Shown here in pieces: positions 15,084-29,145 of a stretch of DNA of 33,582 nt. Under the pieces are notes generated by a model that searched no databases, was not told the DNA's origin, and saw only the letters and a list, made by a program, of their open reading frames with translations. The number at the start of each line of letters is the position of its first letter. Position 1 is the first letter of the stretch. Position numbers and translations under genes: made by a program. The DNA is from Actinomycetes bacterium. Lineage in GTDB: Bacteria; Actinomycetota; Actinomycetes; Propionibacteriales; Propionibacteriaceae. The stretch covers positions 1-33,582 of the forward strand of contig JAJZQV010000025.1 of the NCBI GenBank assembly GCA_021803025.1, given 5' to 3'.

Positions 15084-16316
15084 GTGCCGGTAACAGCAGT
15101 GGGCTTGAGCCACCACCTCGCAGCGCCGGAGGACCTCGCCCGCATCGGTGATGCCGCCGACGCCGTGGAGGCGTGTCTCGCGAGCTGTTCCACCGTCGCG
15201 GGCTGGGTGCTGCTGAGCACGTGCAACCGGTTCGAGCTGTACCTCGACGGGCCGACCTTCCACGCCGTCGTGGACGCCGCCGTCGATGCCGTACGAGAGG
15301 CGCTCGCTCCCGACCGTCGCGACCTCGCCGACCAGTTCGAGGTGTACGTGGGCCAGTCGGCGGTCGAGCACCTGCTCGAGGTGGCTTCGGGACTCGACTC
15401 CATGGTCGTCGGCGAGGCGGAGATCATCGGGCAGGTACGAGCGGCGATCTCTTCCGGCGCCGACCATGCCACGGCCACCCTGCACAGGCTGTTCCACGCG
15501 GCGCTCACGACCGCCAAGGCCGTCGTGTCGGACACTGACCTCGGCGCCGCGGGACGTTCCGTCGCCGGCGTCGGCCTCGACCTCGTCGAGCAGCGCCACT
15601 TCCCGCTTGCGGGTCGCCGCGCCCTCGTCGTGGGGACGGGGAGCTACGCCCGGGTCGTCACGGCCGCACTCGTCCGGCGAGGCTGCGTCGACATCGACGT
15701 GTACTCGCCGACGGGCCGAGCCGACGCGTTCGCCGAGTCCCACCCCGTGGTCCCCGTGGCCGACCTGGCCCCCGCCGTCCGTGGAGCGGACCTCATCGTC
15801 ACGTGCAGCGGCTCGTCCGGCGACCCGACGATCGGACGGGACCTTCTCGAGGCCGCCCGGGACGACCGTCCGCTGCTTCCCGTCCTCGACCTGTCCCTGT
15901 CCGGAGACGTCTCACCCGACGCGGCGGACCTGGTCGGCGTCGACCTCATCGACCTCGAGGAGGTCGGCGCGCACGCGCCCGCCGACCAGGGCACTGCTGT
16001 CCTCGAGGCCCGTGAGCTCGTCAGCCGCGGGGTCGAGGCGTACCTGCACCTCGAGTCGGGGCGCGTGGCCACGCCCGCCGTCACCGCGATGCGCGCCCAC
16101 GTCAGCCAGTTCATCGAGAAGGAGATCGAGGTGGCGAGGCGTCGCTACGACCCGGAGACGGCCGAGGCCGTCGCACGCTCGCTGCGCCGCGTCTCCAACT
16201 CGCTCCTCCACGCGCCGTCGCTGCGCGCGGCGGAGTTCGCCCGTACCGGCGAGCTCGCCGACTACCAGCAGGCCCTCCGCACCCTGTTCGGTATCGACGT
16301 CGAGGTCCAGGGTTGA
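15084..16316 (+). CDS. hemA: Glutamyl-tRNA reductase HemA
   Basis: About 410 residues. It reduces glutamyl-tRNA with NADPH to glutamate-1-semialdehyde, the first committed step of C5-pathway tetrapyrrole synthesis. VTAVGLSHHLAAPEDL opens the catalytic domain; the nucleophilic Cys47 is in STCNRFELY, and AVEHLLEVASGLDSMVVGEA holds His96 and the conserved Glu of the active site. VVGTGSYARVVTAAL is the NADPH-binding loop. Where many homologues have DLAVPRDVEP this one has DLSLSGDVSP. The C-terminal dimerisation helices end in ALRTLFGID. The GTG at 15084 was chosen because homology begins there and a TACCCT box precedes it. First gene of the heme operon; its stop overlaps the hemE start (TTGA). 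Confidence 0.93.
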   Translation: MPVTAVGLSHHLAAPEDLARIGDAADAVEACLASCSTVAGWVLLSTCNRFELYLDGPTFHAVVDAAVDAVREALAPDRRDLADQFEVYVGQSAVEHLLEVASGLDSMVVGEAEIIGQVRAAISSGADHATATLHRLFHAALTTAKAVVSDTDLGAAGRSVAGVGLDLVEQRHFPLAGRRALVVGTGSYARVVTAALVRRGCVDIDVYSPTGRADAFAESHPVVPVADLAPAVRGADLIVTCSGSSGDPTIGRDLLEAARDDRPLLPVLDLSLSGDVSPDAADLVGVDLIDLEEVGAHAPADQGTAVLEARELVSRGVEAYLHLESGRVATPAVTAMRAHVSQFIEKEIEVARRRYDPETAEAVARSLRRVSNSLLHAPSLRAAEFARTGELADYQQALRTLFGIDVEVQG

Positions 16317-26563: not shown

Positions 26564-26739
26564 GCGCTCGGCGTGTGGCGGACGAGGACGAGGTGCAGCA
26601 GGACGCCGACGACGGGCGCCCAGAACACACCGCCGATGTCCAGGACCGTGACCCCTGACGCGGCGGAGTGGCGGACAGGCAGATCGCGTGGTCGATCGGG
26701 TGGGGGATGCGGGCTGTGAGCGTGCCGGGCGCGGGGCAC
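26560..26739 (-). other. Possible short membrane ORF or remnant upstream of the phosphotransferase
   Basis: A frame opening at a GTG (26737-26739) gives 59 codons. The first 30 are Pro/Arg/His-rich and look non-coding. The last 30 contain VLDIGGVFWAPVVGVLLHLV, a credible transmembrane helix, then LVRHTPSA and a stop that overlaps the phosphotransferase ATG. This could be the worn-down tail of a membrane-protein gene that once led an operon with the kinase. Its start lies only 38 bp from the divergent lipoprotein gene, so a full-length gene is not present. Confidence 0.3.
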
Positions 26740-26777
26740 CGTGGGGAAGAGCGCGGTCCGGTCCGTACGATCGGCTC

Positions 26778-27581
26778 GTGAAGATCGGGATGGCCGGACT
26801 CGTGGCCTTGATGCTCGTGCTGTCCGGCTGCAGCGGGATCGGCAACCCCGGTCAGACCAAGGCGTGCCGCGCCCTGGCCGACCAGGTGCCCAGGATCGCC
26901 GGCGTCACGGGCGCCACCTTCACCGACGCGATGGTCGGTGGGCTTCCCCGCTGTACCGGGGACGTGGCACTCACGCAGGGCCTGTCGACGACCGAGCGCG
27001 GACGGGTGGTCGGCGCCGTGTACGACGTGATCCGGACCAGGGGGGTCAAGGAGGTCGAGTTCGCCACGAGCTTCGCGCTGGGCGGCTCGACACTCAGCGT
27101 GGCGAGCGGCTTTCCGACGGCGGAGCAGGCGACGCGGGTGGTGGAGATCGCGGACTCGTCCCACGCCGGCCCCGTGGAGATCGCCTACTCGCGGGGGAGC
27201 CTGCTCGCGACCCTCCACGCGCCGCTGTCGAGCACGACCCCCGCCGCGTCGCTTCGTGAGGGCATCGCGCTGCTGCGCACGCAGCCGCCAGCGGGGTTCG
27301 TCGAGCTCGACTGGTACCTGGGCCAGAACGTCATCGTCGCGCCCACGCTCACCGCAGGCGACGCCTCCCGTCTCGACGCGCTGGCCTCGTGGTTCCAGAC
27401 GAACCCTGCCGTCACCTCGTACACGCTGAGGATCCAGGCGGGCGTTCAGACGTGGACGCTCGTGACCTCGGAGGAGGTGCCCGAGGTCGTCCGGGACTTC
27501 GGCACTGCAGCCGGAGCCGGTGCCACCGTGAAGGTCTCGGCCTCCCTACCGGGCAAACCGCCGTACCTCACCTTCCCCTGA
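26778..27581 (+). CDS. Predicted lipoprotein of unknown function
   Basis: A 267-residue secreted protein. KIGMAGLVALMLVLSGC is a lipoprotein signal with Cys18 in the lipobox LSGC. The mature part has Cys pairs around KACRALADQV and LPRCTGDVAL, and otherwise mixed alpha/beta sequence without a motif I can name; segments such as GGSTLSVASGFPTAEQATRV and ALASWFQTNPAVTSYTLRI recall small repeated beta-alpha units. The GTG at 26778 is taken as start: TACGAT (26766-26771) lies six bases upstream, no ribosome-binding site is present, and the signal peptide begins there. It is divergent from the phosphotransferase unit. The role is unknown; a surface or cell-envelope protein is likely. Confidence 0.75.
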   Translation: MKIGMAGLVALMLVLSGCSGIGNPGQTKACRALADQVPRIAGVTGATFTDAMVGGLPRCTGDVALTQGLSTTERGRVVGAVYDVIRTRGVKEVEFATSFALGGSTLSVASGFPTAEQATRVVEIADSSHAGPVEIAYSRGSLLATLHAPLSSTTPAASLREGIALLRTQPPAGFVELDWYLGQNVIVAPTLTAGDASRLDALASWFQTNPAVTSYTLRIQAGVQTWTLVTSEEVPEVVRDFGTAAGAGATVKVSASLPGKPPYLTFP

Positions 27582-27618: not shown

Positions 27619-27712
27619 GTCGGTTCACCATGTTAAGTAGGTGAACCGGATGTTCTCATGGCAAATCCGCCATGAGAACATCCAACTTGCCTACTTAACA
27701 TGGTGAACCGAC
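27619..27712. repeat. 94-bp near-perfect palindrome, AT-richer than its surroundings
   Basis: Two 44-bp arms (27619-27662 and 27669-27712) are inverted copies with five mismatches, all clustered in one six-base block, around the loop AAATCC. The inner 15 bp, GGATGTTCTCATGGC, pair perfectly. The left arm can also fold alone (CGGTTCACC against GGTGAACCG, 27621-27648). Flanks beyond GTCGG/CCGAC do not match, so the borders are sharp. It is part of the 418-bp gap between the lipoprotein and bkd genes. Confidence 0.85.
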
Positions 27713-27786: not shown

Positions 27787-27825
27787 CCCTTCGACCGTGA
27801 CCCCCGCACAAGGGGTGCCGAAAGG
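27787..27825. repeat. 39-bp direct repeat, copy 1
   Basis: Starts CCCTTCGACCGTGACCCCCG and ends GGTGCCGAAAGG; identical to copy 2 at 27861-27899, with a 74-bp period. Inside, CCCC-GCACAA-GGGG and CCTTCG/CGAAAGG allow a stem-loop, so it has the form of a repetitive extragenic palindrome. Confidence 0.8.
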
Positions 27826-27860: not shown

Positions 27861-27899
27861 CCCTTCGACCGTGACCCCCGCACAAGGGGTGCCGAAAGG
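27861..27899. repeat. 39-bp direct repeat, copy 2
   Basis: Identical over all 39 bases to 27787-27825. The 35-bp spacer between the copies itself begins CGGGT and ends ACCCG. This copy ends 30 bp before the -35 box of the following operon, so a role as a regulator-binding site is possible as well as a mobile palindrome. Confidence 0.8.
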
Positions 27900-27999: not shown

Positions 28000-29145
28000 G
28001 TGACCGCGACGAACGCCTGGACCCCCCGGATCGTCGGCCCCGCAAGCGAGCCGCCTGACGACCCCTTCGCTGGGGAACCCGCCGACGGGATCGAGACCGT
28101 ACAGCTCCTCGACCCGGATGCGCGGCCCCGTCGTCACCACACGTACAGCCCGCAGCTGACCGTCGACGAGGTGCGCGAGGCGTACCGGACGATGTTCCTG
28201 TCCCGGCGCCTCGACACCGAGGGCACGAACCTCCAGCGCCAGGGCCAGCTCGCGCTGTGGGCTCCGGCCAAGGGCCAGGAGGCGGCGCAGATCGGCGCGA
28301 TCAGCGCCCTCCGCGCCACGGACATGGTCTACCCCTCGTACCGCGAGCTCTCGATGGTGATGCACCGCGGCCTCGACCCGATCGGCGTCTTCCAGATCAT
28401 GCGCGGCATCACGCACGCCACGTGGGACGTCGAGGCGCACCGGATGGGGGTCTTCGCGTTCGTCGTGGGCGCTCAGACGCTGCAGGCCGTGGGGTACGGC
28501 ATGGGCATCACGCTCGACGGCTCCGACGAGGTCGTCCTCGCCTGCCTCGGCGACGGTGCGACGAGCGAAGGGCACGTCAACGAGGCGCTGAACTTCGCGG
28601 CCGTGTACAGGGCGCCCGTGATCTTCCTCGTGCAGAACAACCAGTACGCGATCTCCGTACCCACCGCCCAGCAGTTCCGCGGCGCTCCCGCAGCACGAGC
28701 CGCGGGATTCGGGATGCCGGGCGTACGCGTCGACGGCAACGACCTCTTCGCGGTTCACGCCGTGGTCGCCGAGGCCGCGGCGCGCGCTCGTGCCGGGGAG
28801 GGCCCGACACTCGTCGAGGCGATGACCTACCGGATCGGGGCTCACACCACCGCGGACGACCCCACCCGCTACCGCACCCGCGCGGAGGAGGACCTCTGGG
28901 TGGGTCGCGACCCGCTGGTACGGACGGAGCGCTGGCTGCGCGAGCAGGGGACCACGGACGACTGGTTCACCGGCCTCGCCGCCGAGGCCGACGAGGTCGC
29001 CACCGACCTGCGGGCCCGGGTCCTCGCGCTCGAGCCCCAGGGCATCACGGACCTGTACGACTTCGTGCTCGCCGAGCCTTCCGCCGCGCTCGCCGAGGAG
29101 CGCGAGCAGGTGGCCGCGTACATCGCCGGGCTGGAGGGCCGCTAG
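28000..29145 (+). CDS. Branched-chain 2-oxoacid dehydrogenase E1, alpha subunit
   Basis: A 381-residue thiamine-diphosphate subunit. The TPP-binding motif runs from GDGATSEG (GDG at 184-186) to VQNNQYAIS (NN at 213-214). KGQEAAQIGA and VYPSYRELSMVMHRGLDP belong to the E1-alpha family that decarboxylates 2-oxoacids. The layout (separate alpha, beta and E2 genes) and the long N-terminus favour a branched-chain 2-oxoacid dehydrogenase, which turns keto acids of Val, Leu and Ile into acyl-CoA primers; a pyruvate or acetoin role cannot be excluded. It starts at the GTG at 28000 after AGGAAGGGAG. It is preceded by tandem TetR-like operators. E1-beta begins directly after its TAG stop. Confidence 0.87.
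   Translation: MTATNAWTPRIVGPASEPPDDPFAGEPADGIETVQLLDPDARPRRHHTYSPQLTVDEVREAYRTMFLSRRLDTEGTNLQRQGQLALWAPAKGQEAAQIGAISALRATDMVYPSYRELSMVMHRGLDPIGVFQIMRGITHATWDVEAHRMGVFAFVVGAQTLQAVGYGMGITLDGSDEVVLACLGDGATSEGHVNEALNFAAVYRAPVIFLVQNNQYAISVPTAQQFRGAPAARAAGFGMPGVRVDGNDLFAVHAVVAEAAARARAGEGPTLVEAMTYRIGAHTTADDPTRYRTRAEEDLWVGRDPLVRTERWLREQGTTDDWFTGLAAEADEVATDLRARVLALEPQGITDLYDFVLAEPSAALAEEREQVAAYIAGLEGR

Follow-up and report, generated by a model that had tools for sequence, protein, structure and literature searches.

The palindrome and its surroundings

In the window, that is, the whole stretch of 33,582 nucleotides that was analysed from a Propionibacteriaceae-type MAG, a palindromic element lies in the gap between a lipoprotein-like ORF and a dehydrogenase E1 component gene. 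It begins 37 bp beyond the stop codon of the former, and the latter starts 287 bp after it. The features are listed below, with the column entropies taken from the alignment of genus copies described in the next section.

26688–27581, + strand: lipoprotein-like ORF (297 aa) upstream of the element, no Pfam match
27619–27712, no strand: the palindromic element in full, 94 bp; the window genome has 33 such loci
27619–27662, + strand: left arm, 44 nt
27621–27648, + strand: inverted repeat CGGTTCACC...GGTGAACCG nested in the arm; the outer module is thus quasi-palindromic in itself
27622–27635, + strand: conserved outer motif GGTTCAYCAYGTTA, mirror at 27696–27709, mean column entropy 0.18 bits (alignment columns 4–17 and 78–91)
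27642–27652, + strand: hypervariable block with all five arm differences inside, mirror at 27679–27689, mean column entropy 1.11 bits
27653–27662, + strand: conserved inner motif TTCTCATGGC, mirror at 27669–27678, mean column entropy 0.17 bits
27663–27668, no strand: centre, 6 nt, AAATCC (family consensus NRATYN)
27669–27712, − strand: right arm, 44 nt
28000–29145, + strand: downstream neighbour, dehydrogenase E1 component gene (PF00676, E = 4e-67)

The original prediction of a 94-bp palindrome, AT-richer than its surroundings and with a second self-pairing unit in its left arm, describes the locus correctly. The arms are 89% complementary over 44 nt around a 6-nt loop, and 40 of the 47 symmetric positions match, while the runner-up in the window has 31/47 and a symmetry of 28/47 was reached by 24 of 2522 random windows. 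The predicted RNA fold is very stable (−88.2 kcal/mol, z = −13.2), none of 200 shuffles being equally good, and the palindrome is far beyond chance. Its GC content is 0.48, as compared to 0.71 for the window and 0.70–0.72 for the 500-bp flanks. The nested unit, as read from the letters, pairs CGGTTCACC at 27621–27629 with GGTGAACCG at 27640–27648. All five arm mismatches (arm positions 24, 25, 27, 28 and 29) are confined to one six-base block, as had been noted, but the replaced or converted tract proposed to account for them is not needed, since this block is the part that is hypervariable throughout the repeat family (1.11 against 0.17–0.18 bits). The runner-up palindromic stretch, at 16118–16211, is GC-rich, probably coding and dissimilar to the element. 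Between the palindrome and the dehydrogenase E1 gene there is also a perfect direct repeat of 39 bp (27787–27825 and 27861–27899, spacing 74 bp), whose sequence is not related to that of the palindrome.

A dispersed family of fixed length

Copies were looked for in the window genome (G000) and in other actinomycetes, and the sequence is not unique. The window genome has 33 dispersed loci, three sister species have about 25–30 copies each, and two others have fewer. The genus copies that were aligned (n = 87) are all exactly 94 bp long and gap-free, and they follow one plan, in which the hypervariable block (entropy 1.11 bits) is framed by an outer GGTTCAYCAYGTTAAG and an inner TTCTCATGGC motif (about 0.18 bits). 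At their ends the genus copies have the conserved sequence GGTTCAYCA; outside the genus the ends differ. GTDB records with the same pattern come from MAGs labelled Propionibacteriaceae, Propionibacteriales or Actinomycetota and from two Nocardioides strains. Early blastn searches pointed to a confinement to one genus; this was a limit of sensitivity, as the GTDB pattern scan and a covariance model made clear. None of the plasmids and phages searched matched either the palindrome or the protein described in the next section. Two contigs of the window genome break inside or beside palindrome copies, C43 at its start and C190 at its end.

Most copies are found 10–60 bp beyond stop codons, and convergent gene pairs outnumber divergent ones at the copies by 36 to 7, in counts based on gene calls made by a simple script. 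Roughly every second copy of the window genome has a counterpart in the corresponding intergenic region of one to three other species, and this conservation of position shows most copies to be old rather than freshly moved. In the distant pair G000–G004 the similarity of orthologous copies is 0.784 and that of paralogous copies 0.783; for the close pair G000–G003 the corresponding values are 0.868 and 0.815. Columns 10/85 (C:G or T:A) are switched nearly genome-wide between species. The sites thus persist between species, and the sequence of the palindrome changes in concert.

The suggestion that the palindrome is a miniature transposable element goes in the right direction as regards dispersal in the window genome and in three sister species; no target duplication was seen. 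No consistent flanking repeat was found at the genus copies, nor at the near-identical copies of a further genome, G202. Old copies would have lost their target duplications, but the G202 copies are without them too. Orthologous candidates for empty sites were aligned and gave blurred junctions, none of them clean. One-sided partial duplications of about 18–27 bp, holding one element end together with flank, adjoin the element at several loci (L028, L029, L030, L036, L037, L039, L041 and L058), and are perhaps remnants of earlier copies or the result of slippage at the palindrome.

The structured RNA considered in the original prediction gained no support from covariation. The arms of a copy pair at 85.1% of positions, compared with 84.1% when partners are shuffled between copies, and the number of pairs with two-sided change is 19 against 18.3 after shuffling. 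A fold with three hairpins gives 82.1% against 81.3%, so that neither this fold nor the long hairpin is clearly beyond the shuffles as a covarying RNA. RNAalifold supported few pairs, and no Rfam family matches the palindrome. Since own arms pair hardly better than arms from different copies, what is conserved appears to be two sets of DNA half-sites, as for recognition by a protein, and not a covarying RNA.

A nuclease gene bracketed by palindromes

In G002 and G003 a 313-aa gene is bracketed by two inverted copies of the palindrome. In G004 one bracketing copy is seen, and of the other only a short piece of its end is left. The window genome contains, at one locus (L034, G000:C175:44371-44592), a remnant of this gene with residues 240–313 only, the rest being deleted, and the remnant sits between two palindrome copies 262 bp apart. 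The cognate gene of the window genome has thus decayed to its last ~74 codons. The system is probably dead in this genome and its copies, the one in the window included, are probably orphans now because of that decay; the window copy is likely a relic of the system, which relatives still have in intact form. The same arrangement of gene and palindrome, with different arms, is found in G238, from another family.

The AlphaFold model of the 313-aa protein (pLDDT 92) was compared with known structures. The N-terminal half of this predicted model has an AbiEi-antitoxin fold (6y8q, Z 10.8), and the C-terminal half has the fold of the homing endonuclease I-Bth0305I (3r3p, Z 12.3, 96/97 residues) and is also Vsr-like (1cw0, Z 10.3). 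The protein gives weak matches to PF13338 and to the AbiEi model of PADLOC, and a sequence search against solved structures gave nothing significant. The residues E204, D237, E248, D250 and K254 are invariant, and these acidic residues and the lysine suggest that the protein would be an active nuclease. The AbiE type IV toxin-antitoxin system shares the N-terminal fold, but the AbiEi-Vsr protein, unlike the AbiEi antitoxin, bears a nuclease domain, and its gene stands alone between the palindromes. No gene for an AbiEii nucleotidyltransferase toxin was found beside the gene in the loci checked (the neighbours at L062 and L086 are unrelated), and identity with an AbiE toxin-antitoxin system is ruled out for want of this partner.

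The protein was searched in 391 genomes of the order Propionibacteriales, 28 of which form a clade whose proteins are about 49% or more identical to it, and the palindromes of the cassettes were located by a scan independent of sequence. An upstream palindrome of ~94 bp with its centre at −150 to −192 is present at 21/28 clade genes, and a downstream one at +81 to +133 past the stop at 18/28, comparable palindromes occurring in about 1% of random windows. Seven of the 28 genes are without a full upstream palindrome at the threshold used, which weighs against the explanation preferred below; several of the remaining genes have shorter or rearranged hairpins at the expected place. More distant relatives also show matched hairpins, among them G600, from another actinomycete family, where a palindrome copy lies downstream of the gene (G600:C1:519134-519200). 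The downstream value for locus L327, which is truncated at one end, is discounted. In two cassettes, L228 (G352) and L230 (G363), the outer 26-bp module is direct (flipped) instead of inverted, and the long hairpin is therefore not strictly required.

Each gene seems to have its own palindrome code. The palindrome upstream of a gene and the one downstream are 84% alike if taken from one genome and 57% alike if taken from different genomes, and the best-matching palindrome is the own partner in 18/20 cases. The similarity of the palindromes tracks that of the proteins (Mantel r = 0.63), a correlation that is partly confounded by shared phylogeny. With composite queries, the own palindrome code was found dispersed in each of twelve genomes. 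In G412, which has two clade genes, two codes are dispersed. The second of these codes is located upstream of the second gene; that gene shares 92.5% identity with the one in G388, a genome that bears this second code. Palindromes are present in 23 of the 28 genomes with a clade gene and in 26 of the 363 without (p = 5e-19). These 26 sampled genomes have palindrome matches and no clade gene, and paralogues with hairpins of their own exist. The cognate pairing of gene and palindrome appears well supported by these comparisons. In G202 (L341–L360), palindrome copies at roughly 20–30 places are 92–98% identical, and it is from this identity that their spread appears to be recent. They are built of the palindrome and a central palindrome, to which a second outer palindrome is added in most copies; they have a constant starting edge, and the outer module is a perfect palindrome. 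Such copies make G202 well suited for catching insertion junctions.

Interpretation and comparison with known systems

A family of fixed length, its dispersal, a gene bracketed at fixed distances and one code per gene appear well supported by the sequence comparisons. The reading we prefer, with a probability of roughly two in three, is that the palindrome is a non-autonomous copy of an element that has the AbiEi-Vsr-type nuclease as its cognate protein, the gene for this protein being located elsewhere on the chromosome, with an inverted pair of element copies around it. Mobilisation of the palindromes by this nuclease is what we infer from the arrangement. The N-terminal winged-helix half would bind the arms as repeated half-sites, and the C-terminal nuclease half would nick or cut at the palindrome or at the target. 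Repair or replication could then place copies of the palindrome in intergenic sites, in most cases shortly beyond a stop codon; the gene itself would stay where it is. The nuclease half may perhaps also drive the concerted change of old copies. Against this reading stand the target duplications and clean empty sites that were looked for and not found, the genomes with palindromes but no clade gene, the clade genes short of a full upstream palindrome, the share of phylogeny in the protein–palindrome correlation and the age of most copies.

REP elements have puzzled researchers for decades, and RAYT is, to our knowledge, the only enzyme class known to accompany REP-type repeats. The element described here is best read as part of a system that resembles REPIN/RAYT but has an enzyme of unrelated type. 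Every RAYT gene has an inverted pair of REPs at its sides, and a stationary gene between two inverted palindromes is common to both systems (PMC2817692). RAYT genes are single-copy and vertically inherited, and REPIN/RAYT persists over long times; many dispersed intergenic palindromes, a species-specific sequence and long persistence are likewise shared (PMC8049555). The enzyme of REPIN/RAYT is a Y1 (HUH) transposase, whereas the AbiEi and Vsr-type nuclease protein has another fold, and none of seven genus genomes matches the Y1 transposase family (PF01797), with positive controls. The element also differs from REP in the absence of the REP tag (GTAG/CGTC) from its end, and from REP/REPIN in its fixed length of 94 bp in the genus clade. 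Membership of REPIN/RAYT is therefore excluded.

The most serious competing view, though an unlikely one, is regulation without mobility, in which an AbiEi-type protein would bind the bracketing palindromes as operators and the dispersed copies would be co-evolving sites maintained by the host, as a regulon or as chromosome-organising sites. AbiEi antitoxins do bind inverted repeats and autoregulate in this way (PMC7319586), and arms conserved as half-sites, as well as sites that are held across species while their sequence is altered genome-wide, would be in line with it. Such a regulator does not require a nuclease domain, however, the copies are mostly downstream of genes rather than at promoters, and the identity of the G202 copies implies recent copying. 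An ordinary MITE moved by some DDE transposase, with the AbiEi-Vsr gene as a frequent passenger between two copies, seems improbable to us. The element shares with MITEs that it is short and non-coding with long inverted repeats and many dispersed copies; it differs in that no target duplication was seen, at genus and G202 copies alike, and in its unusually strict length. None of the loci read showed a parental DDE element, with one such end on either side of a transposase gene; what was found between palindrome copies was the AbiEi-Vsr gene. In most genomes of the clade, moreover, this gene is framed by palindromes that match each other and stand at fixed distances, and every genome has a code of its own. 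Least probable is a structured RNA or 3'-end hairpin acting only as a transcription terminator and spread by chance or by selection at gene ends, which would suit the position of the copies past stops, the convergent bias and the very stable fold, but not the arms, which do not covary clearly beyond shuffled ones, nor the exact length and species-wide code, which a terminator does not need; the nuclease cassette would also be left unexplained.

The preferred reading, of an element with a cognate AbiEi-Vsr nuclease, can also be set beside two other groups. Among free-standing EDxHD/Vsr homing endonucleases, I-Bth0305I shares the C-terminal fold; unlike it, the AbiEi-Vsr protein has an AbiEi-like N-terminal half and accompanying dispersed palindromes, and neither an intron or intein nor an allelic target site came to light. 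The double-hairpin or palindromic elements of fungal and algal mitochondria are dispersed and apparently mobile, in genomes with homing endonucleases; they are organellar, unlike the 94-bp element, and we know of no palindrome-bracketed gene among them.

The whole has the look of a selfish DNA system not described before, present across many actinomycetes, similar to the REP elements of E. coli and with an unrelated enzyme. The open-access literature, to which our search was limited, held no description of such a protein together with palindromes, and a prior description is possible. We give somewhat better than even odds to the broader proposal of a widespread selfish or domesticated DNA of actinomycetes, in which a Vsr-type nuclease, guided by its AbiEi part and without relation to known transposase families, copies its own species-specific palindrome to other places on the chromosome and drives the concerted evolution of that palindrome. 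If true, this second, unrelated enzyme would mean that the architecture of a stationary gene plus dispersed palindromes evolves repeatedly, and it would suggest a role for the large family of unexplained actinomycete AbiEi/Vsr-type proteins. The cassettes would also provide a natural set of matched protein–DNA codes, two of them side by side in one genome, for the study of how DNA specificity evolves. A distant AbiEi/nuclease paralogue (27–29% identity) is present in the window genome as well (L047, 1488–2611), with the same palindrome just upstream.
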